This document shows, in pieces, positions 4,698-15,978 of a DNA stretch of 64,000 nt. The notes beneath the pieces were generated by a model. That model was not told the origin of the DNA. It made no database searches and saw only the letters and a program-made list of their open reading frames with translations. Source of the stretch: Cloacibacterium caeni (GTDB lineage Bacteria > Bacteroidota > Bacteroidia > Flavobacteriales > Weeksellaceae); contig NZ_OU015319.1 of the NCBI RefSeq assembly GCF_907163125.1, positions 2,046,001-2,110,000 of the forward strand, given 5' to 3'. Position numbers and translations under genes: made by a program. Positions within the stretch are counted from its first letter, which is position 1. Every line of letters starts with the position of its first letter.

Positions 4698-5543
4698 TTA
4701 AGATTCAAGATTTTTTGGTGGTTTATTCTTATTTAAAAGAGCTTTTGCATTTTGAGAAGTTACTACTTTTTTGCCTGTAGATTCTTCTAATTTTTCTCTT
4801 GCAACTTTTGCAACATCCCCACCTTTTTTGGCAACCTCTACATTTTCTTCAAAATTTTGTGGATTAAATGACTGAGAAATATCTTTCGTGGACGCTTCCG
4901 CTAACATATTCAAAATCAATTCTGTATTCGTCATATGATCACGAAGATTTTCCTTTTTTAAATCTTTCAACTTTTTATATTCTTTGGTTGATTTTCCTGA
5001 CCAAGTTTTGGTAATAATATCCGTTAAAACAGCAAATTGAAGTCCTTCTTTCATTCCTCGCTTCTTCCATTCATCTGTTAATTCTTTACGAATTTCAATA
5101 CTTTTTAATCTTTGATTAATCCAATTTTCAGAATATCCTAATTGCAAATATTCTTGCATAGCACGTTCTACGGTGAGCTCAGGATTTTGCATTTCATCTA
5201 ATCTTTCATTAGCGATTTTCGCCAACCAAAGTTTAAAAGGTTCTGCTTTTGGTGATGGAATAGACTGAATTAAACGGAAAAGTTGTTCGGTATCAGTAAC
5301 ATCGGTTTTATAAAATTTACCATCCGAAGATTGCATTTTCAGTTGACTACAATTTGTAGCCAACTCACTTCCTTCTTTTTTAAGTCGAGTTTTTAGAACA
5401 CTCCAATACTTTCTAGCATTTGGAGATTCCGTCAAAACTTCTATTACATCTACAATAGAAAAATACCATTTTTCTTGTTCATCATCCCAAATAGTGCGAA
5501 TTTTTTTGGATTCAAAAATTTGTAAAGCGTTTTGCTGTGTCAT
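4698..5543 (-). CDS. BRO-N domain (DinD/antirepressor-like) protein
   Basis: A 281-residue protein. The N-terminal 110 residues match the BRO-N fold of phage antirepressors and DinD-like proteins: KKIRTIWDDEQEKWYFSIVD, a WSVLK segment, then FRLIQSIPSPKAEPFKLWLA. The C-terminal half is helical and highly charged. Such proteins are usually found on mobile elements or in damage-induced loci, and there is no known role in hydrogenase assembly. It sits in line with the TonB receptor (36 bases upstream) and hypD (13 bases downstream). The last codons and stop overlap a tandem AAGATT repeat, so the 3' end may have been remodelled on insertion. Confidence 0.8.
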   Translation of the reverse strand: MTQQNALQIFESKKIRTIWDDEQEKWYFSIVDVIEVLTESPNARKYWSVLKTRLKKEGSELATNCSQLKMQSSDGKFYKTDVTDTEQLFRLIQSIPSPKAEPFKLWLAKIANERLDEMQNPELTVERAMQEYLQLGYSENWINQRLKSIEIRKELTDEWKKRGMKEGLQFAVLTDIITKTWSGKSTKEYKKLKDLKKENLRDHMTNTELILNMLAEASTKDISQSFNPQNFEENVEVAKKGGDVAKVAREKLEESTGKKVVTSQNAKALLNKNKPPKNLES

Positions 5544-5579: not shown

Positions 5580-7835
5580 CTAAAAGAAATAAGTGTAACT
5601 TAATTTACCAAAAAACGGAGTTCCTGGCGTAAAGTGAATCTCTGAAACAGGCTGAATTTCGTTATACAATCTACTTTCTGTATCAAATTGGGTTTCTTTC
5701 CATTTCACATTAAAAATGTTCTGAACAGAAACTCCCAATTCCCATTTTTTAGTGGTATAATTTACCGTTCCATCCCAAACAAAGTATCCTTTTGCCACCA
5801 CAGAATTATCTTCATTTGCAGGTCTATCTCCCATCAATCGGTAACGCAAACTTCCGTTGAAACCCATTTGTTTTCTGTAGGTAATTCCTCCTGTGCTTAC
5901 TAATTTTGGAGCTAGAGGAATGAAATTTTCATCAGCAGGAAAATTTAAACTTCTTGGTTTCGCTATACTTAAATTAAAATCTGCAAACCAATTTTGGTAA
6001 ATTTCGTAGCGAGCAGTGATGTCAATTCCCATTCTTTCGGTTTTCCCACCTTCTTCTACCACCGCTTCATCGCCTACATAAACGAATTCTTGGTCTAACC
6101 AAAGATACCAAACCGCCGATTGAAGAATGAGTTTTTTGCCAATTTTAAAAACTCCACCAAAATCTGCTCCTAAAGCAGGAGGCAAAACTTTTTTACCGTT
6201 TTCTACAACTGCAACTCTGGTGTCATTGCTGTGGAAACCTTTTCCAAAATAAGAATACAATTGCACATTTTCATTGAAACGATAATTCATTCTTAATTTT
6301 GGACTGAAAATATTGGAATTTGATTTTAGTTTTTGCTGAAGAAGTTTGTCATTATACTGATTATCAAAATAATCAAATCTGATAGAAGGCGTAATATCAA
6401 AATTTTGATTTAAAGCAATTTTTTGACTCCAAAAAGCACCGAAATTCATTTCATTTACGTCACCAAATTTTAAAGCTTCTGTAGTGATGGTTCTGTCTTT
6501 GGTTCTGGAAAGTTCTAAATCATTTACATCATCATAACGCAATTGAATTCCTGCAATAGTCTCTGATTTAAAACCAAAAATTTTTGTAGATTTTTCGTAA
6601 GTAGAATTAAAACCGTACAAATTTCTATCTTCTTTTTGGCGAATTTGGTCGCCGTTAATTGGGTCATTTAAGAAAAATGTAAAATTAGAATACAACTCAA
6701 ACTGATATTTAGAATAAAAAATCTGATTGGTGAATTTTCCTCCATTATTGAGATAAGATTTCATGTTGGCAGTGAAATTATATCGAGAAGTTTTGCCACC
6801 TTCATTGTCATCAATTGCACCAAACCAACCAATTGTTCCATCTTCTATCGCTCTATCAGGTATTTGACCCGAAGCGTTCCATTTACTGGAAAGTCCAGAT
6901 AAATAAGCGGTTAAGAAATTATTATCATTCAACTTTCCATGATATTTCAGCATTCCATTAAAACGGTTAAAATCTTGAGGGCTGTCAAAATATCCATCTG
7001 TAAAATAAGCTTCTGTAGCTAAAAATAAGCTATGGTCTTTTATTTCTTTATTGTTTTTCAAAAGGTTTAAACCCAAAACACCACGGTACGTTTTGAATTG
7101 CCCAACTTCTAATTTGGCAAAATTATTTTCCAGAAAATCTTTGGTTTTGAAATCTACAAAACCTGCGGTGGTAAAATTTCCTTTTTCCGCAAAATAAGGA
7201 CCTTTATCAAAATTTACTTTATCAATAAATTCAGGAATCACGAAATGCAAATCTGCATAACCTTGTCCGTGAGCGTGAGAAACCATATTCACGGGAATTC
7301 CGTCCACAGAAATGCTTACATCCGTTCCGTGATCTACATCAAAACCACGAATAAAAAGCTGCTCCGCTTTTCCGCCTCCAGCGTGTTGACCGATGAAAAG
7401 CCCTGGAACAGAACGCAAAATTTCTTGCGAATTGTTAATCGGACGAAGATGAATATCTAATTCTGATATGGTTTGAAAAATATTATTTCTTACAGAATTT
7501 TTCAATTGAACTTCCGCAATACTTACCACTTTTGGGTTGAGAAAAATGTAGCCAAAATCTTTTTCTTTTTTAATGGAATCTAAGTTAAACTCTTCTTTCT
7601 CATAACCAATTCCAGAAACATAAATTTTTTGATTTTCCGAATTGAAATTTTGAAGACTCACAAAACCATTTTCGTCTGAAACTTCTTGAAAACCATCATT
7701 AAAATCACTTATTAATACTGATGAAATTGGCTTTTTTGTAATTTCAATTAAAACATAAATTCCTTTTAAATTTTGTGCAAAAAATTCATTAATTGAAATT
7801 AAAATTAATAAAAAAAGAAAGATTTTTAACCTCAT
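5580..7835 (-). CDS. TonB-dependent outer-membrane receptor, probably nickel-linked
   Basis: A 751-residue receptor: signal peptide (about 1-20), a carboxypeptidase-like carrier domain (about 22-100), a plug domain (about 115-230) with SVPGLFIGQHAGGGKAEQLF and VDGIPVNMVSHAHGQG, then a beta-barrel ending in aromatic SYTYFF. The plug histidines (SHAHGQG) could bind metal. Gene order is nikR then this gene, and both share a 21-bp-period repeat immediately before the start codon. This supports a role in Ni2+ or Ni-chelate uptake, as known for NikR-controlled receptors of Helicobacter. Substrate specificity is inferred from context only. Confidence 0.85.
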   Translation of the reverse strand: MRLKIFLFLLILISINEFFAQNLKGIYVLIEITKKPISSVLISDFNDGFQEVSDENGFVSLQNFNSENQKIYVSGIGYEKEEFNLDSIKKEKDFGYIFLNPKVVSIAEVQLKNSVRNNIFQTISELDIHLRPINNSQEILRSVPGLFIGQHAGGGKAEQLFIRGFDVDHGTDVSISVDGIPVNMVSHAHGQGYADLHFVIPEFIDKVNFDKGPYFAEKGNFTTAGFVDFKTKDFLENNFAKLEVGQFKTYRGVLGLNLLKNNKEIKDHSLFLATEAYFTDGYFDSPQDFNRFNGMLKYHGKLNDNNFLTAYLSGLSSKWNASGQIPDRAIEDGTIGWFGAIDDNEGGKTSRYNFTANMKSYLNNGGKFTNQIFYSKYQFELYSNFTFFLNDPINGDQIRQKEDRNLYGFNSTYEKSTKIFGFKSETIAGIQLRYDDVNDLELSRTKDRTITTEALKFGDVNEMNFGAFWSQKIALNQNFDITPSIRFDYFDNQYNDKLLQQKLKSNSNIFSPKLRMNYRFNENVQLYSYFGKGFHSNDTRVAVVENGKKVLPPALGADFGGVFKIGKKLILQSAVWYLWLDQEFVYVGDEAVVEEGGKTERMGIDITARYEIYQNWFADFNLSIAKPRSLNFPADENFIPLAPKLVSTGGITYRKQMGFNGSLRYRLMGDRPANEDNSVVAKGYFVWDGTVNYTTKKWELGVSVQNIFNVKWKETQFDTESRLYNEIQPVSEIHFTPGTPFFGKLSYTYFF

Positions 7836-7838
7836 ACC

Positions 7839-7867
7839 GTATTACTTTTTTATATTTTCGTGTTACT
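7839..7867 (-). promoter_or_regulatory. Candidate NikR operator before the TonB receptor gene
   Basis: On the plus strand it reads GTATTAC, then an AT-rich spacer, then TGTTACT; the two TTAC cores (7842, 7863) are 21 bases apart. The same layout lies before nikR at 8321-8349. It ends 3 bases before the ATG, so binding would block initiation of transcription or translation. That NikR is the binder is inference. Confidence 0.55.
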
Positions 7868-7881
7868 TTTTGCAAATTAAA

Positions 7882-7914
7882 AACCCTTTCAGAGTTTGAA
7901 ACTCTGAAAGGGTT
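7882..7914. repeat. Perfect 16-bp-arm palindrome, REP-like, bidirectional terminator
   Basis: The arm AACCCTTTCAGAGTTT and its exact complement flank a single G. It lies 3 bases past the nikR stop codon and upstream of the receptor operator. It probably ends nikR transcripts, leaving the receptor to its own promoter. This palindrome type looks like a dispersed element of flavobacterial genomes. Confidence 0.8.
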
Positions 7915-7917
7915 AGT

Positions 7918-8319
7918 TTATATCATTTTACTGGTTACCAATTTCCCATGAATAATCCCTTTTAAACCAATTAATTTATTGGCTAAATCGGTTAAACGAT
8001 TTGCGTTTCCTTTTACTGCAATAATTTCTAAGCAATTATCATGATCCAGATGAAAATGTTGTGCTGAAAGAATTTCTTTGTAAAATTCATGCTGAATATC
8101 ATTCATCTTTACTCCTACATCACCTTTATGATGATCAAAAAGCAACACGATAGCACCAGAAACCACATCATTTTCTTTCCATTTCTTTTCTACAATTCGG
8201 TTTTCTACCAAATGTCGAATCGCTTGTGAACGGTTTGGCAAATGATTATCCAGAACGAATTGGTCTAATTCTTTCAAAACTTCTTCGTCTAAACTTACGC
8301 CAAATCTTACTTGCGCCAT
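7918..8319 (-). CDS. nikR: Nickel-responsive regulator NikR
   Basis: A 133-residue ribbon-helix-helix repressor. The N-terminal 45 residues form the RHH DNA-binding domain (RFGVSLDEEVLKELDQF). The C-terminal ACT-like domain carries the nickel site at the family's spacing: H77, H88, H90 and C96 (IQHEFY, QHFHLDHDNC). Length matches family members. It lies between the FKBP gene and the TonB receptor gene. Its own start and that of the receptor are preceded by the same direct repeat, which suggests autoregulation and control of nickel uptake. Confidence 0.95.
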   Translation of the reverse strand: MAQVRFGVSLDEEVLKELDQFVLDNHLPNRSQAIRHLVENRIVEKKWKENDVVSGAIVLLFDHHKGDVGVKMNDIQHEFYKEILSAQHFHLDHDNCLEIIAVKGNANRLTDLANKLIGLKGIIHGKLVTSKMI

Positions 8320-8320
8320 C

Positions 8321-8349
8321 GTGTTACTTTTTAAATATTTCTTGTTACT
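8321..8349 (-). promoter_or_regulatory. Candidate NikR operator before nikR
   Basis: GTGTTAC (8321-8327), an AT-rich spacer and TGTTACT (8343-8349), TTAC cores 21 bases apart, end one base from the nikR ATG. Apart from a few substitutions it equals the sequence before the TonB receptor gene. Confidence 0.55.
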
Positions 8350-8384
8350 AAAATAATTAAATTCCAGAGAGTGAATAAATTATT

Positions 8385-9011
8385 TTACATGATTTTATTC
8401 AGTTCTATCACAAAAACCAAAGTTGCATTCGGTTGAATCATTGGTGGCGCTCCGTTTTCTCCGTAAGCTAAATGTGGCGGAATATACACTTTCCAACGAG
8501 AACCTTCTTGCATTTTAGTCAACACTTCTTTCCATCCTTCTATCATTTCTGAAATTCTAAAAACTTGCGCACCTACATCTCTAGTAGAATCAAAAACCTG
8601 CTTATCTAGCAAATAACCTTCATATTCTACTTCTACCTCATCGGTTATTTTTGGAATTTCTCCGTTTCCTTCTACCAAAATTTCGTATTGCAAACCGCTT
8701 TCTAATTCTGTAATTTTAGGATTTTCTTTATTTTTTTCGAGAAAAGCTTGTCCTTCATCTGCATTTTTTTGCAACATTTCGCCACGAAGCAACAGCACAT
8801 AATTGTTGAAGATATCAATAGATTTTTTTGGCGAAATTTTTCCCATCTCATTATTGAAAACAGTTTTCATTCCCTCCGTAAAATCATCATATTTAATATC
8901 TTCAAAGCCCATATCTTTCAAGCTCATCGCCATTACCACACCAGCAGAATAAGAAACTTTGTCTTCGTCTTCGGTGTGGTCTATTTTTCCTAATAAATCG
9001 TAAATGTCCAT
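8385..9011 (-). CDS. Cytoplasmic FKBP-type peptidyl-prolyl isomerase (FklB/Mip-like)
   Basis: A 208-residue protein without a signal peptide: an N-terminal helical dimerisation domain (about 1-95), then an FKBP domain (about 105-208) with EVEVEYEGYLLDKQVFDST, GWKEVLTKMQEGS and IPPHLAYGENG. It lies between hypF and nikR, on the same strand. In Escherichia coli another FKBP protein, SlyD, helps deliver nickel to hydrogenase. This one lacks SlyD's histidine-rich tail and insert domain, so an analogous role is only suggested by position. Confidence 0.88.
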   Translation of the reverse strand: MDIYDLLGKIDHTEDEDKVSYSAGVVMAMSLKDMGFEDIKYDDFTEGMKTVFNNEMGKISPKKSIDIFNNYVLLLRGEMLQKNADEGQAFLEKNKENPKITELESGLQYEILVEGNGEIPKITDEVEVEYEGYLLDKQVFDSTRDVGAQVFRISEMIEGWKEVLTKMQEGSRWKVYIPPHLAYGENGAPPMIQPNATLVFVIELNKIM

Positions 9012-9132: not shown

Positions 9133-11412
9133 TTATTTTAAGTTTAAGTAATAATTCAATTGCCCGAAACTGATGTTCTCATCATTTGGAGAAAGTATTT
9201 CGTGGAAATGAAGTTCAAATTTATCTCCCAAAAATTCTATTGCCAAATCTACTAACAAAGCATTTTGCCAAACTCCACCAGAAAAAGTGATTTCTTTCAC
9301 CGCAAAACGCTGTGCTATTTTTTCAATCGCTTTAATTAAAGTAAAATGAAAATTCAGTCCGATTTCGCCAGCGCTTTTTCCTGATTTTTTTTCTTCCAGA
9401 ATTTTAGAAAACAGTTTTTTTGTAGGGATATTTTCAAATTCATCATTTTTCAAATAATCTTTCAATCTGTGAAAATCTGTGAAATCTGTGGGAAACTTTT
9501 CCTGAGAAATTTTCTCCAACCACATAGCAGATTCTCCCTCAAAAAAAATGTTTTTTTCATAACCTAAAACAAAAGCAACCGCATCGAAAAACCTTCCCAT
9601 AGATGAAGTTTTCACTTCTGACTTCTCTATAAGATTGGTGTAGATTTTCCATTCGTTTTCATCAAAAGCAAATTTCAAATCTTCATTATTTTCCGAAATA
9701 GAAAGTGCTGAAATTTTGGGAGATTTCGACATTTTATTGCCTAAAATCCAAGCGAAATTTTCGAGTTGAGCCACTCTTTCCATTTTTTGATTTTCAAAAA
9801 GGAAAAATTCTCCGCCCCAAATTTCTGTAGAAGTTCCGAAACCAATTCCGTCCCAAATAATGCCCAAAACTTTATCTTTTTTCCAGAGTTTTTTTTCTCC
9901 TAAAATGGAGGCGAAATGTGCTTTATGATGCTGGATTTTATTATTTCCCACAGATTCCGCAGATTTCCACAGATTTTTTATAATTTTTTGGTTTTCGTAT
10001 TTAGGATGTAAATCGGAAAGAATTAAATTGGGTTCAAAATTGAAGATTTTTTGATACGATTTTACAGTATTTTCAAATCTTTCGTAGGTTTCAAAATTGG
10101 CTAAATCACCGATAAATTCTGAAATGTAAACGTGATTGTTTGGAACAACGGCGAAAGTATTTTTAAGATCTCCGCCTAAACACAGAATCTTGTTTTTTTC
10201 TTTATTGAGTTCCGAAAGTTCTTCGGCAAAGAAATAATTGGGAGCAAAACCTCTGGAACGACGAAAAACAATTTTCTGCTGATGTTTTGGAGAAAATTTA
10301 ATCACAGAATCGTCTTGAGGATGCTGAATTTCTAATGTATTATGCAAAAAATAATCTGCAATTTTACCTAAAATTTGCTCAGCTTCTTCTGTAGTAGAAC
10401 AAATTGGCGAACCATGGAAATTTCCACTGGTTGCGATGAGCGGTTTTCCGAAAGTTTTCGAAATCAATTTCAACGTGCCAGAATAGGGAAACATCGCGCC
10501 AACAGAATTCATATTCGGTGAAATCTCTTCAATTGCCAAATCTTTTACCTCCTTAATTTTAGTAACAATTATAGGACTTTCAGAGGATTTAAAATGCTGA
10601 ATTTGCAGTTCTGACACCTCTAAATATTCCTGCATTGTTGAGATTCCAGAAAATAAAACGGCGAAAGGTTTCGTAGGTCTGCGTTTTCTTTTTCTCAACT
10701 CTGAAACGGCTGCTGAATTGGTGGCATCACACATCAATAAATAACCTGCTGTATTTTTGAGCGCTACGATTTTTCCTTTGGATAATTCTTTGGCTAATTT
10801 TTCAAAAATTTCTTTGTTGGAGCCTTTGAATTTGTTTCCTTGGTTGCCTTTTAACCAAATTTGAATACCACAATTCGGACAAGAATTGGTTTGAGAATGA
10901 AATCTTACATCATCTGGATTTTTATATTCTGCTAAACAATTCGGGCACATTTTGAAAACTTCAATCGCTGTATTTTCCCTTTCGAAAGGGAATTTTTTGG
11001 TTATAGAATATCTCGGTCCGCATTGTGTGCAAGTGGTAAAAGGGTAAAAATAACGAGGATTTTTCTCATCAAAAAGTTCAGTTTCACAAGATTCGCAAGT
11101 TGCAAAATCAGGCGTTAACGGAATATCTACCACAATGTTTTTTTCGGTAGGTTTGATGAAAAATCTATCAAAAATTTCTGCTGTTTCAATTTCTTTGATT
11201 TCAGAAAAAATGATTTCAGAAGATTTCGGTTTTCTGTGATGAATATCATTAAAAAATTGCTCAGAATTTTCACCTTGACAAACAATAATTACGCCCAACT
11301 CGTCATTCGAAACGTAGCCTTTTAGTCCGAATTCTTCAGCCAAATTGAAAATAAAAGGACGAAAACCCACTCCTTGAACTCGCCCTGAAATATGTATTTC
11401 GTATGATATCAT
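9133..11412 (-). CDS. hypF: Carbamoyltransferase HypF
   Basis: A 759-residue enzyme that carbamoylates HypE from carbamoyl phosphate and ATP, the first step in making the cyanide ligands of the active-site iron. Domains in order: acylphosphatase (1-90, GRVQGVGFRPF), paired zinc fingers (CESC, CTQC, CPNC, CPNC; about 105-180), a YrdC-like nucleotide-binding domain (about 205-385) and a Kae1-like domain (about 400-759) with HHKAH and LGIIWDGIGFG. Two surface-loop segments are encoded by a dispersed DNA repeat (9463-9495 and, inverted, 9944-9976). The frame is intact, so the enzyme is probably functional. Confidence 0.95.
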   Translation of the reverse strand: MISYEIHISGRVQGVGFRPFIFNLAEEFGLKGYVSNDELGVIIVCQGENSEQFFNDIHHRKPKSSEIIFSEIKEIETAEIFDRFFIKPTEKNIVVDIPLTPDFATCESCETELFDEKNPRYFYPFTTCTQCGPRYSITKKFPFERENTAIEVFKMCPNCLAEYKNPDDVRFHSQTNSCPNCGIQIWLKGNQGNKFKGSNKEIFEKLAKELSKGKIVALKNTAGYLLMCDATNSAAVSELRKRKRRPTKPFAVLFSGISTMQEYLEVSELQIQHFKSSESPIIVTKIKEVKDLAIEEISPNMNSVGAMFPYSGTLKLISKTFGKPLIATSGNFHGSPICSTTEEAEQILGKIADYFLHNTLEIQHPQDDSVIKFSPKHQQKIVFRRSRGFAPNYFFAEELSELNKEKNKILCLGGDLKNTFAVVPNNHVYISEFIGDLANFETYERFENTVKSYQKIFNFEPNLILSDLHPKYENQKIIKNLWKSAESVGNNKIQHHKAHFASILGEKKLWKKDKVLGIIWDGIGFGTSTEIWGGEFFLFENQKMERVAQLENFAWILGNKMSKSPKISALSISENNEDLKFAFDENEWKIYTNLIEKSEVKTSSMGRFFDAVAFVLGYEKNIFFEGESAMWLEKISQEKFPTDFTDFHRLKDYLKNDEFENIPTKKLFSKILEEKKSGKSAGEIGLNFHFTLIKAIEKIAQRFAVKEITFSGGVWQNALLVDLAIEFLGDKFELHFHEILSPNDENISFGQLNYYLNLK
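9463..9495. repeat. CACAGATT repeat inside hypF, copy 1
   Basis: Its reverse complement has three CACAGATT units headed by TTTCCCACAG. It is an inverted copy of 9944-9976, matching about 30 of 33 bases. It codes for FPTDFTDFHRL in a variable loop of the Kae1-like domain. Confidence 0.75.
9944..9976. repeat. CACAGATT repeat inside hypF, copy 2
   Basis: TTTCCCACAGATTCCGCAG followed by another CACAGATT unit, inverted relative to copy 1 and 450 bases away. It codes for KNLWKSAESVG in the loop before the conserved HHKAH motif. Confidence 0.75.
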
Positions 11413-12851: not shown

Positions 12852-14588
12852 TTAAACGGTACAAACAGAAACGTCATTAATTTCTTTGATGATATTTCCT
12901 TTTTCGTCATACAAATGCACTGCACAAGCAATACAAGGGTCAAAAGAGTGAATCGTTCTAATGATTTCTAATGGAAGTTCTGTGTCTGCAACTGGAGTAT
13001 TAATCAATGTACTCTCGTAAGGAGAGCGTTGTCCTTTTGGATCACGTGGTGATGCATTCCAAGTAGAAGGTACAATTTGTTGGTAATTTTCTGTTTTACC
13101 GTCTTTTATTACAATCCAGTGGCTTAATCCTCCTCTTGGAGCCTCTACTCTACCTACACCTTTGGCTTCGGCTGGCCATGTAGAAACTTCCCATTTCTCC
13201 ATATTTGCCATTCTTTCGTCTCCTCCTTTGATGTTTTCAATTAATTTATCATAGAATTCTAAATTCCACTGAGCTACTAATTGAGTTTCTAAACCTCTAG
13301 CTGCTGTTCTACCTAAAGTAGAGAATAATGCTTCTGCAGGAACATCTAATTTCGTTAATGCAGAATCTACTACTTCTTTGAAATCTTCTCTTCCTGAAGC
13401 ATAACCTAATAACATTCTCGCTAATGGGCCTACTTCCATCGCTTGACCTTTCCAACGAGGAGTTTTGATAAAGCTGTATTTATTTTCTACATCTAAGAAT
13501 TCATAAGGAGGTTTCGGACCTGTATAATTGATATTCGTTTCTCCACTCCATGGTTGTTTTCCAGCATTTGGATCACCTGTATAATCGTACCAAGAGTTAT
13601 TCACATGCTCTTCTACTGTTTTCAGATTTTCTAAATCTACATCATGTACTTTAGATAAATCTTTATTAAGAATTACACCTGCTGGGAATTTGTAGGTACT
13701 CATGTCTTTATTTCCGTAACCAGCCATTGGGAAATCTCCGAAAGCCATAAAATTATGGAAACCACCAATTGCGCCCCAATCTTTGTAGAAACTAGCAATC
13801 GTTAATAAATCTGGAAGATAAACTTGTTCTACAAATTCTTTTCCTTGAATTAATAATTTCTGAACTAGAGCAAGTCTCTCTGCGTTAATACCACTTGCGT
13901 CATCTACATTAATTGCACAAGCCATTCCTCCTACTAAGAAATTAGGGTGTGGATTTTTACCTCCGAAGATAGCGTGAATTTTTACGATTTCTTTTTGCCA
14001 TTCTAAAGCTTCAAGGTAGTGAGCTGTTGCCATTAAATTCGCTTCTGGTGGAAGTTTCATAGCTGGGTGTCCCCAATATCCGTTTGCGAAGATTCCTAAT
14101 TGTCCGCTGTCTACAAATTTTTTCAAACGTTTTTGTAAATCAGCAAAATATCCTGGTGAAGATTTTGGCCAATTAGAGATGGATTGTGCTAATTGTGATG
14201 TTTTTATAGGGTCTGCACTTAAACCATTGACTACATCTACCCAGTCAAATGCATGAAGATGATAGAAGTGTACAATATGGTCATGTAAATATAATGAACC
14301 CAGCATTATATTTCTTACCATTTCTGCATTAGGTGGTACATTAATTCCTAATGCGTTTTCTACTGCTCTAATAGAAGCAATAGCGTGGGTAGTAGTACAT
14401 ACTCCACAAGTTCTTTGTACAAAAGCCCAAACATCTTTTGGGTTTCTGCCTTTTACAATATTTTCTAAACCACGCACCATTGTTGATGAAAGGAATGCGT
14501 CTCTGATGGTTCCGTCTGTGATTTCTACCTCTGCTCTTAAATGACCTTCAATCCTTGTAATAGGATCTACTACTATTCTATTTGCCAT
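12852..14588 (-). CDS. hyaB: [NiFe] hydrogenase large subunit
   Basis: A 578-residue catalytic subunit holding the Ni-Fe(CN)2CO site. The two cysteine pairs are intact: RTCGVC (C61, C64) near the N-terminus and DPCIACAVH (C552, C555) near the C-terminus. The maturation protease should cut after H558, releasing 20 residues. Motifs place it in group 1, the membrane-bound uptake enzymes. It is exported as a complex by the Tat signal of the small subunit, whose gene ends 11 bases upstream. Confidence 0.96.
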   Translation of the reverse strand: MANRIVVDPITRIEGHLRAEVEITDGTIRDAFLSSTMVRGLENIVKGRNPKDVWAFVQRTCGVCTTTHAIASIRAVENALGINVPPNAEMVRNIMLGSLYLHDHIVHFYHLHAFDWVDVVNGLSADPIKTSQLAQSISNWPKSSPGYFADLQKRLKKFVDSGQLGIFANGYWGHPAMKLPPEANLMATAHYLEALEWQKEIVKIHAIFGGKNPHPNFLVGGMACAINVDDASGINAERLALVQKLLIQGKEFVEQVYLPDLLTIASFYKDWGAIGGFHNFMAFGDFPMAGYGNKDMSTYKFPAGVILNKDLSKVHDVDLENLKTVEEHVNNSWYDYTGDPNAGKQPWSGETNINYTGPKPPYEFLDVENKYSFIKTPRWKGQAMEVGPLARMLLGYASGREDFKEVVDSALTKLDVPAEALFSTLGRTAARGLETQLVAQWNLEFYDKLIENIKGGDERMANMEKWEVSTWPAEAKGVGRVEAPRGGLSHWIVIKDGKTENYQQIVPSTWNASPRDPKGQRSPYESTLINTPVADTELPLEIIRTIHSFDPCIACAVHLYDEKGNIIKEINDVSVCTV

Positions 14589-14599
14589 TTTTTAAATTT

Positions 14600-15736
14600 T
14601 TAAATCTTGTCTTTAGCTAATTTTTTTTCACTTTCTTCTGCTTCTTTTATTCTTCTTTCTAAATCTTTTCTCTTAGAAATATTAGAAGCTACGGCATGTA
14701 TTGCAGCTCCGGCAACTACACCACCAAGAGCAACTTTACCAACAGTATCAGCATTGCTCTCTGCGAAACCGCCTATTGCAGAAATGTCTCTAGAATAGAA
14801 ACTATCTGCTGCATCCCAGAATTTATCTGCACTACAACCTAGACATCCGTGACCAGACTGAATTGGGTAAGAGATACCACCATTCCATTTCATATTACCA
14901 CAGGTATTATAAGTAGATGGTCCTTTACAGCCTACTTTATATAGACAATATCCTTTTTTAGCATTTTCGTCATCGAAACTTTCTACGAATAGACCTGCAT
15001 CAAAATAAGGTCTTCTGTAGCAACTATCGTGTACACGTTTAGAATAGAAAGCTTTTGGTCTTCCTGCAGCATCTAATTCTGGTAATTTACCAAATGCTAC
15101 ATAATGTACAATCACTCCAGCCATTACCTCACCAATTGGCGGACATCCTGGAACATTGATAATTGGTTTATCTGTAATAATTTTATTAATAGGAACCGCA
15201 CCAGTAGGATTAGGTTTTGCTGCTTGTACACAACCTGTAGTTGCACAGCTTCCCCATGCTATGATAGCAGCAGCGTCTTTAGCAGACTCTTTTAGAATAT
15301 CTATAGCTGTTCTTCCTGCAATTACACAATAATTACCATCATCTCCTAGTGGAACAGAACCTTCTACACAAAGAATATATTTTCCTTTGTATTTCTCCAT
15401 CGTAGATTTTTTCGCAGCTTCTGCTTGATGACCACTTGCCGCCATCAATGTTAAAGTGTAATCTAATGAAATCTTATCAAGAATTATATCCGCTACGATA
15501 GGATGGTCTGAACGGATAAAAGACTCACTGCAACAGGTACATTCTTGGAAATGTTCCCATATTACAGGTAATCTTGGTGTAGTAGCTAATGCTTTGGCTA
15601 CTTGACCAAGAGCTGAACTTTCGATACCCATGTATGCGCCAATGAAAGCAACAAATTTCATGAAATCTCTTCTAGAATATCCTTGTCTCTCAATACTCTG
15701 AAGATAAGTTTCATTGGTTGAAGTTTTAGTCCCCAT
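14600..15736 (-). CDS. hyaA: [NiFe] hydrogenase small subunit, O2-tolerant type
   Basis: A 378-residue electron-transfer subunit read from the ATG at 15736; an in-frame ATG 16 codons earlier is less likely because it would bury the Tat motif. SRRDFMK (21-27) is the twin-arginine signal. The proximal-cluster segment is ECTCCSESF with C66, C68 and C69, and SCATTGC gives C164 and C169. C68 and C169 are the two additional cysteines that make the [4Fe-3S] cluster of O2-tolerant enzymes such as E. coli Hyd-1. Distal and medial ligands follow (HDSC, CLYKVGC, TCGN, HGCLGC). A C-terminal helix (about 330-350) anchors it in the membrane. Confidence 0.96.
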   Translation of the reverse strand: MGTKTSTNETYLQSIERQGYSRRDFMKFVAFIGAYMGIESSALGQVAKALATTPRLPVIWEHFQECTCCSESFIRSDHPIVADIILDKISLDYTLTLMAASGHQAEAAKKSTMEKYKGKYILCVEGSVPLGDDGNYCVIAGRTAIDILKESAKDAAAIIAWGSCATTGCVQAAKPNPTGAVPINKIITDKPIINVPGCPPIGEVMAGVIVHYVAFGKLPELDAAGRPKAFYSKRVHDSCYRRPYFDAGLFVESFDDENAKKGYCLYKVGCKGPSTYNTCGNMKWNGGISYPIQSGHGCLGCSADKFWDAADSFYSRDISAIGGFAESNADTVGKVALGGVVAGAAIHAVASNISKRKDLERRIKEAEESEKKLAKDKI

Positions 15737-15848
15737 ATTATTTTTTATTAATCCTTCTAAAATTAGAAAAATTTTGAAATACAACCGAAAAGAATTACGT
15801 TATTTATAATTATTTTAAATTTATTTTAAACAAAACATCCCATAAACA

Positions 15849-15882
15849 GTGACTTCATTAAACACATGTCACTTTTGTTACT
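15849..15882. promoter_or_regulatory. Overlapping dyads in the divergent hydrogenase/hypA promoter
   Basis: GTGAC (15849) and GTCAC (15868) form a symmetric dyad with a 14-base spacer. TGTCAC-tttt-GTTACT (15867-15882) overlaps it and nearly matches the dyad at 433-448. The region is 113 bases before the hydrogenase start and 97 before hypA, so both operons could be controlled. The binding proteins are not known. Confidence 0.5.
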
Positions 15883-15948
15883 GATTAAAATCATATAAAA
15901 GTCCTATTAAAAACACAAAAATCATTTAAAAAATTAATCAGAAAAGTG

Positions 15949-15956
15949 TAGATTTG
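15949..15956 (+). promoter_or_regulatory. -7 box TAGATTTG for the hyp operon
   Basis: Exact TAnnTTTG match 22 bases before the hypA ATG. No TTG is found at normal -33 spacing, which would fit a promoter needing an activator. Confidence 0.5.
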
Positions 15957-15978
15957 TTACATATCATTTAACAAAAAA

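Follow-up and report, generated by a model that had tools for sequence, protein, structure and literature searches.

In the window, by which we mean the whole stretch of 64,000 nt of Cloacibacterium caeni DNA that was analysed, a nikR gene and a gene for a TonB-dependent receptor lie within a hydrogenase gene cluster, each preceded by a short repeat. Transcription runs through the genes for the hydrogenase small and large subunits, a cytochrome b subunit, a maturation protease and hypF, and continues through an FKBP-type isomerase gene, nikR, the TonB-dependent receptor gene, a BRO-N ORF and hypD. The features that concern us here are as follows:

12852-15784, minus strand: genes of the large and small [NiFe]-hydrogenase subunits (nickel consumers), upstream within the cluster
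9133-11412, minus strand: hypF, hydrogenase maturation
8321-8348, minus strand: candidate NikR operator 5' of nikR, a direct repeat, GTAACAAgaaatatttaaaaaGTAACAC
8342-8348 and 8321-8327, minus strand: half-sites GTAACAA and GTAACAC of that operator, N14 spacer, 1 base from the nikR ATG
7918-8319, minus strand: nikR, nickel-responsive ribbon-helix-helix regulator, 133 aa, assigned by its domains and a NikR equivalog
7839-7866, minus strand: candidate NikR operator 5' of the TonB-dependent receptor gene, a direct repeat, GTAACACgaaaatataaaaaaGTAATAC
7860-7866 and 7839-7845, minus strand: half-sites GTAACAC and GTAATAC of that operator, N14 spacer, 3 bases from the ATG
5580-7835, minus strand: TonB-dependent receptor, 751 aa, plug (PF07715) and barrel (PF00593) domains above cut-offs

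The FKBP-type peptidyl-prolyl isomerase gene (8385-9011, minus strand) separates hypF from nikR; in the Cloacibacterium genome G089, other sequence was found by eye 5' of nikR. The BRO-N domain ORF (4698-5543, minus strand), between the receptor gene and hypD, was assigned by PADLOC to the candidate defence family PDC-S13 (E 1.6e-138).

The product of the 133-codon gene carries the RHH_1 (PF01402) and NikR_C (PF08753) domains, both above their cut-offs, and also exceeds the cut-offs of the NikR equivalog NF003381 and of NF002815, while falling short of TIGR02793 (81.8 bits, cut-off 175). All 12 of its 12 PDB matches are nickel-responsive regulators, and its nearest named relative is the NikR of C. 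normanense (99% identical). The N-terminus, MAQVRFGVS, contains the pattern R5-x-G7-x-S9, in which R5 and S9 are invariant among 15 aligned NikR proteins and G7 occurs in 13 of them; a Geobacter NikR with an Arg-Gly-Ser strand reportedly binds GTGTTAC-type sites. In E. coli NikR, nickel is bound by H76, H87, H89 and C95, and the candidate ligands here, equated by motif, are H77, H88 and H90, each in at least 90% of the 15 aligned proteins, and C96, present in 15/15. The receptor, for which no NCBIfam model scored above its cut-off, is predicted to take up a nickel species across the outer membrane, a substrate that we infer from the operator and the neighbouring genes.

All four TTAC cores that a sequence-only reading of this DNA had placed at 7842, 7863, 8324 and 8345 are present, and a repeat search of the window returned both sites as two-copy repeats with a period of 21, in agreement with the identical 21-base spacing that it had described; the distance of 1-4 bases to the start codons was likewise correct (1 base for nikR, 3 for the receptor gene). 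On the coding strand the sequence runs GTAACAAgaaatatttaaaaaGTAACACg and then ATG for nikR, and GTAACACgaaaatataaaaaaGTAATACggt and then ATG for the receptor gene. Both sites follow the pattern GTAACA-N15-GTAAYAC, and each combines one perfect half-site with one that is a single base off GTGTTAC/GTAACAC. Where the earlier reading had left the choice between a direct and a quasi-palindromic operator, the arrangement proved to be a direct repeat, of which each half-site is in addition pseudo-palindromic (GTRNYAC). Within the window, GTAACA-N15-GTAACAC with 0 or 1 mismatch matched these two sites and no other. At up to 3 mismatches the pattern matched 20 times (mean of 100 shuffles 11.6, largest 20, reached in 2/100), a total so weakly above the shuffles that the loose pattern alone says little. 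An operator at the hydrogenase genes, where two of the 3-mismatch matches fell within 12852-15784 and none in 15785-15978, was rejected.

The half-site itself has been described before. As given in the excerpts of Rodionov et al. (2004, PMC545781) available to us, the NikR signal of delta-proteobacteria is GTGTTAC-N13/14-GTAACAC, with an everted form, GTAACAC-N13/14-GTGTTAC. It shares with the window the 7-base half-site (GTGTTAC being GTAACAC on the other strand), a spacer of 13-14 bases (N14 at both window sites), the period of 20-21 and targets in nickel uptake, but the excerpted rows of Table 4 hold converging or diverging pairs, whereas both half-sites of each window site point one way. 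Converging or diverging half-sites were found neither at the two window sites nor in five members of the genus, all of which have the direct repeat, and the window sites were therefore classed as a variant rather than as a standard GTGTTAC-type operator. An inverted reading was rejected, as no GTGTTAC-type partner lies in the inverted position. The E. coli operator, quoted in the same excerpts as GTATGAT-N13/14-ATCATAC, resembles the window sites in being bound by NikR and in having two half-sites with a 13-14 base spacer, and differs in half-site sequence and in its inverted orientation; with no GTATGA half-sites at either window site, an operator of that type was rejected as well. The sequence-only reading had made its comparison with the E. 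coli operator alone and overlooked that this half-site had been published. With the word and the spacer known, the head-to-tail pairing of these putative operators is a third arrangement. A direct-repeat NikR site was not found described in the literature searched (most subscription papers lay outside its scope), and neither PMC545781 nor a paper on the Helicobacter pylori NikR regulon (PMC5385501) contains the phrase 'direct repeat'.

Parts of the latter paper offer a second comparison: pentamer centres 20 nt apart are read there as the binding of one tetramer over two turns, and the regulon resembles the window in that a tetramer occupies a pair of half-sites separated by two turns and in having receptor genes among its targets (FecA3/FrpB4 appear in the title of a reference), whereas the H. 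pylori sites are A/T-rich and pseudo-palindromic and the phylum is a different one. In Caldithrix abyssi, according to the portion of PMC5317091 seen, a NikR-like motif is common to loci with nikR, TonB receptors and the nikMNQO nickel transporter. By this description, the loci are like the window in joining nikR to TonB receptors.

Conservation in relatives had been proposed as a check on the earlier reading, and it bore the reading out. Among seven Cloacibacterium genomes, nikR, both repeats, the receptor gene and the [NiFe]-hydrogenase all occur in the same five, while the two genomes lacking nikR also lack the repeat. A search of the seven whole genomes for AGTAACA-N12-AAAGTAAYAC with one mismatch returned 9 sites, every one at nikR or the receptor gene (reversed control, 0); the tenth expected site, 5' of nikR in G089, reads by eye GTAGCAA-N14-GTAACAC, one mismatch more. 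The spacers vary between species, and the words and the 21-base step are constant. A chance origin of the repeats was rejected on this conservation and on the shuffles.

To look beyond the genus, we surveyed 80 loci (L047-L126, three of them Cloacibacterium), the best 80 by similarity of 563 confirmed stretches, a choice that biases the set towards NikRs close to that of the window. Pairs of GTRNYAC with at least 11 of the 12 specified bases were found in the 60 bases 5' of nikR at 46/80 loci and in the 130 bases 3' of its stop codon at 49/80, as against means of 0.1 and 0.07 (largest 1 in either case) in 30 rounds of dinucleotide shuffles, the loci being related sequences and not independent draws. 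Periods of 20 and 21 accounted for 16 and 30 loci upstream and for 15 and 35 downstream, and any other period from 10 to 32 for at most 3. In 39 of these 46, a single base separated the upstream operator from the start codon. No pair scoring at least 11 lay in the 60 bases 5' of nikR at the other 34 loci, among them a Bergeyella nikR 75% identical to that of the window (L050, the same place as L014). An earlier scan of 250 bases at 118 loci had found a pair at 57 (simple-shuffle mean 1.12, largest 5), a set that includes one short weak match that probably holds no nikR (L017) and in which L047-L050 duplicate L011-L014. Of the 24 loci L023-L046, most of them from one family, which we would guess to be Chlorobi, 23 had no pair in the 250 bases 5' of nikR. 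At one locus (L106:3424-3493), four half-sites precede a receptor gene in 21-base steps (GTGTTAC, GTGTTAC, GTGCTAC, GTGTTAC), leaving room for two NikR tetramers.

The link to the receptor also recurred. Five of the 80 loci had no downstream ORF by the rule used, and among the remaining 75 the gene after nikR was receptor-like in 44, as scored with a profile that had been built from 18 of the same proteins. An operator lay in the gap after nikR before 40/44 of the receptor-like genes vs 11/31 of the other genes. A Pfam scan of 71 next genes (leaving out L048, L049, L053 and L059) detected the plug domain in 41, and CbiM in 2 of the rest, in keeping with nickel uptake. Head-to-tail in one sense was the commonest arrangement before receptor genes (26/40), such that a search for NikR sites limited to inverted repeats would miss these. 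On these sequence comparisons, the head-to-tail putative operator is more general than first claimed, being part of a recurring nikR-receptor unit. The resulting rule, namely two GTRNYAC at a period of 20 or 21, in any orientation, beside nikR, would tie a group of TonB-dependent receptors to nickel and yields candidates for outer-membrane nickel uptake in Bacteroidota.

The orientation of the half-sites varied widely among the surveyed loci. Upstream of nikR we found 17 direct pairs (GTAACAC-like twice), 14 inverted pairs (GTGTTAC-like then GTAACAC-like), 3 direct pairs in the other sense (GTGTTAC-like twice) and 12 in which a half-site such as GTGCCAC could not be assigned; the downstream pairs comprised 32 direct, 10 everted (GTAACAC-like then GTGTTAC-like) and 4 inverted ones, with 2 more that were direct in the opposite sense and 1 left undecided. 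Both operators could be strictly classed in 26 genomes; the arrangements differed in 16 of these and agreed in 10, and one NikR should therefore be reading both. On a weakly resolved NikR tree, class changes numbered at least 8 among 34 upstream loci (shuffled mean 13.3) and at least 11 among 50 downstream loci (shuffled mean 17.5), indicating that orientation is labile but not random and that lineages keep an arrangement. Half-site orientation thus seems to be free, which the two-fold symmetry of a ribbon-helix-helix dimer would permit, and we infer that such a dimer reads the pseudo-palindromic word either way round. Given that symmetry, a half-site could flip in place with its centre unmoved, and head-to-tail, inverted and everted pairs would be equivalent as long as the spacing of 20-21 bases is kept. 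Differently oriented pairs read by one protein in the same genome would offer a clean test of what ribbon-helix-helix symmetry does to operators. Other proteins of this fold, as far as excerpts of the respective papers go, tolerate or use direct repeats too: ParB of pSM19035 gives similar ATPase stimulation on two orientation arrangements of four heptads (PMC9499535), and the motif of CdbA is a direct repeat (PMC7156744). They differ from the window NikR in their spacing and in not being metal sensors.

Taken with the published half-site (PMC545781, in excerpt), the identity of NikR, the conservation in the genus and the recurring layout of nikR, operator and receptor gene, these patterns agree with what the sequence-only reading had proposed, a candidate NikR operator common to nikR and an outer-membrane receptor gene. 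Judging from the sequences, we regard it as highly probable that the NikR of the window uses both repeats as its operators, head-to-tail sites through which nickel would control nikR and the receptor gene. With ample nickel, the NikR tetramer, made of two ribbon-helix-helix dimers, would put one dimer on each GTRNYAC, 21 bases or two helix turns apart, and the bound protein would repress both nikR and the receptor gene; under nickel shortage, the cell would make the receptor, which would feed nickel to the hydrogenase. Nickel-dependent binding, repression and nickel as the substrate of the receptor are the predicted parts of this scheme.

A perfect form of the repeat bears on whether the head-to-tail arrangement could instead be a decayed inverted repeat, with NikR needing a single good half-site. 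One half-site is indeed often the weaker (GTAACAA and GTAATAC in the window), but perfect GTAACAC-N13/14-GTAACAC recurs at nikR, and the spacing stays at 20 or 21, which makes decay an unlikely account. In the nikR-bearing genomes of 50 of the 80 loci, we found 17 such perfect sites in 16 genomes (reversed control, 2), of which 16, in 15/50 genomes, are by their letters the sites already seen beside nikR. The 17th (L143, in the genome of L107) lies 5' of a receptor-like stretch that is split over reading frames in the assembly and shares 40-45% identity with the Cloacibacterium receptor over three segments; no nikR match was present within the 3 kb examined there.

Away from nikR, the motif carries little weight. 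A search of 395 Bacteroidia genomes picked without regard to nikR gave 31 perfect direct repeats in 25 genomes, and the reversed control about 70 matches, 33 of them in two genomes; the perfect repeat is thus at background in this set, and the motif without nikR nearby is no evidence. Four of the 31 were examined (the site in the window's own genome, L164, L165 and L178), of which L165 and L178 lie at nikR, L178 being the site of L082. The genome of the window contains GTRNYAC-N14-GTRNYAC in 2 places, the receptor site and C1:1513384, the nikR site being one base short of it. The repeat at C1:1513384-1513411 (L136) is a perfect GTAACAC-N14-GTAACAC with a G+C-richer spacer, shortly 5' of an outer-membrane-like ORF, and is probably background. 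Whole-genome scans with two short loose patterns gave at least 83+90 and at least 60+66 matches, as against at least 181+206 and at least 99+98 in their reversed controls, and were set aside.

The repeats might also bind another regulator of the hydrogenase or nickel cluster, with NikR a chance neighbour. This would suit the 34/80 nikR genes that have no upstream pair, but it leaves aside that the half-site is the published NikR half-site (PMC545781, as excerpted), that pairs lie directly 5' of nikR in 46/80 loci and that their presence tracks nikR in the genus (5/5 with it, 0/2 without), and we consider it improbable. Least credible of all is an element acting in RNA, that is, a leader motif read by an RNA-binding factor or the ribosome, as its abutment on the start codon (39/46 loci) and the A-rich spacer before the start might suggest, since the word of either strand (GTAACAC or GTGTTAC) is found at equivalent positions, an exchange that a factor reading RNA should not tolerate, and since the distance between downstream operator and start varies.

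The housekeeping promoters of Bacteroidota have a -7 box, TAnnTTTG or TAnnTTYG, and a similar box adjoins the nikR operator:

8348-8355, minus strand: -7-like box, TATTTTAG, with 5 of the 6 specified TAnnTTYG bases by eye

The operator begins with the last G of this box. Across the survey, TAnnTTYG ended on the first base of the operator at 26/49 upstream sites, and full matches at 36 other offsets totalled 7; as the last base of the box is common to the operator, the in-register count is inflated, and the other box positions are unaffected. At 13 of those 26 sites, TTG started 25-33 bases upstream (4 and 2 in equal-width control stretches). This in-register box at upstream sites suggests that NikR probably covers the transcription start point of nikR. 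At the downstream sites, TAnnTTYG occurred in register at 0/51 and TAnnTTTG, from -60 to +20 of the operator, at 2/51; a -7 box serving the receptor gene that follows nikR was looked for here and not found.

The downstream operators were often preceded by a tract of T residues. Counted, like the -7 box, in the same loci in which it had been noticed, a tract of 6 or more T within the 11 bases that follow the nikR stop codon was present at 32/51 loci with a downstream operator, 0/29 without one and 3/308 control ORFs; within 60 bases of the stop, at least 6 T occurred at 41/51, 4/29 and 40/308, respectively. Where there was a run of at least 5 T, it ended 9 bases before the operator in 32/39 loci; 12/51 had no run. 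In L101, L085 and L063, for example, 6-9 T directly follow the stop codon of nikR.

One reading of the T-tract, to which we give a chance somewhat short of even, is that it belongs to the receptor's own promoter, as a promoter or DNA-bending element, rather than being a termination signal. T runs also occur before the operator of a receptor-looking ORF divergent from nikR (L100) and near four operators upstream of nikR (L074, L084, L101 and L121), all of which count against termination. Strong hairpins ahead of the T-tracts are not a general feature (41 loci; mean z -0.78, with 7 below -8 kcal). Against a promoter element stand the scarcity of the TAnnTTTG box at the downstream operators (the same 2/51 loci) and the stand-alone receptor in L143, which has a -7-like box and no T-tract.

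Alternatively, the T-tract that is often found 5' of the second operator perhaps marks nickel-dependent roadblock termination. Termination by DNA-bound proteins acting as roadblocks is known (review, PMC10310618, in excerpt). Polymerase leaving nikR would meet NikR on the second operator and stall with the end of its RNA in the T-tract, where the weak U-A hybrid would let the stalled polymerase fall off. We put forward as a tentative, rather doubtful proposal that the second operator of the nikR-receptor unit is a nickel-switched terminator, the first operator blocking the nikR promoter and the second read-through, with orientation free in both. If it were a true roadblock terminator, the T-tract by the second operator would make a simple metal-switched attenuation device.

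In the window, the place of the T-tract is taken by a perfect hairpin that ends in a short T tail:

7882-7914, minus strand: perfect inverted repeat with 16-nt arms, 1 nt between them, followed by T-rich sequence; terminator-like, located after nikR and ahead of the receptor operator

Within the genus, neither a T run nor a hairpin was seen by eye at this position in G039, and in C. rupense (L048) a T7 run stops 9 bases short of the operator. By eye, 3/5 Cloacibacterium genomes (G000, G080 and G089) have a comparable hairpin at this position and the other two have none. One more identical copy of the window hairpin occurs in the genome, at C1:1429159-1429187.
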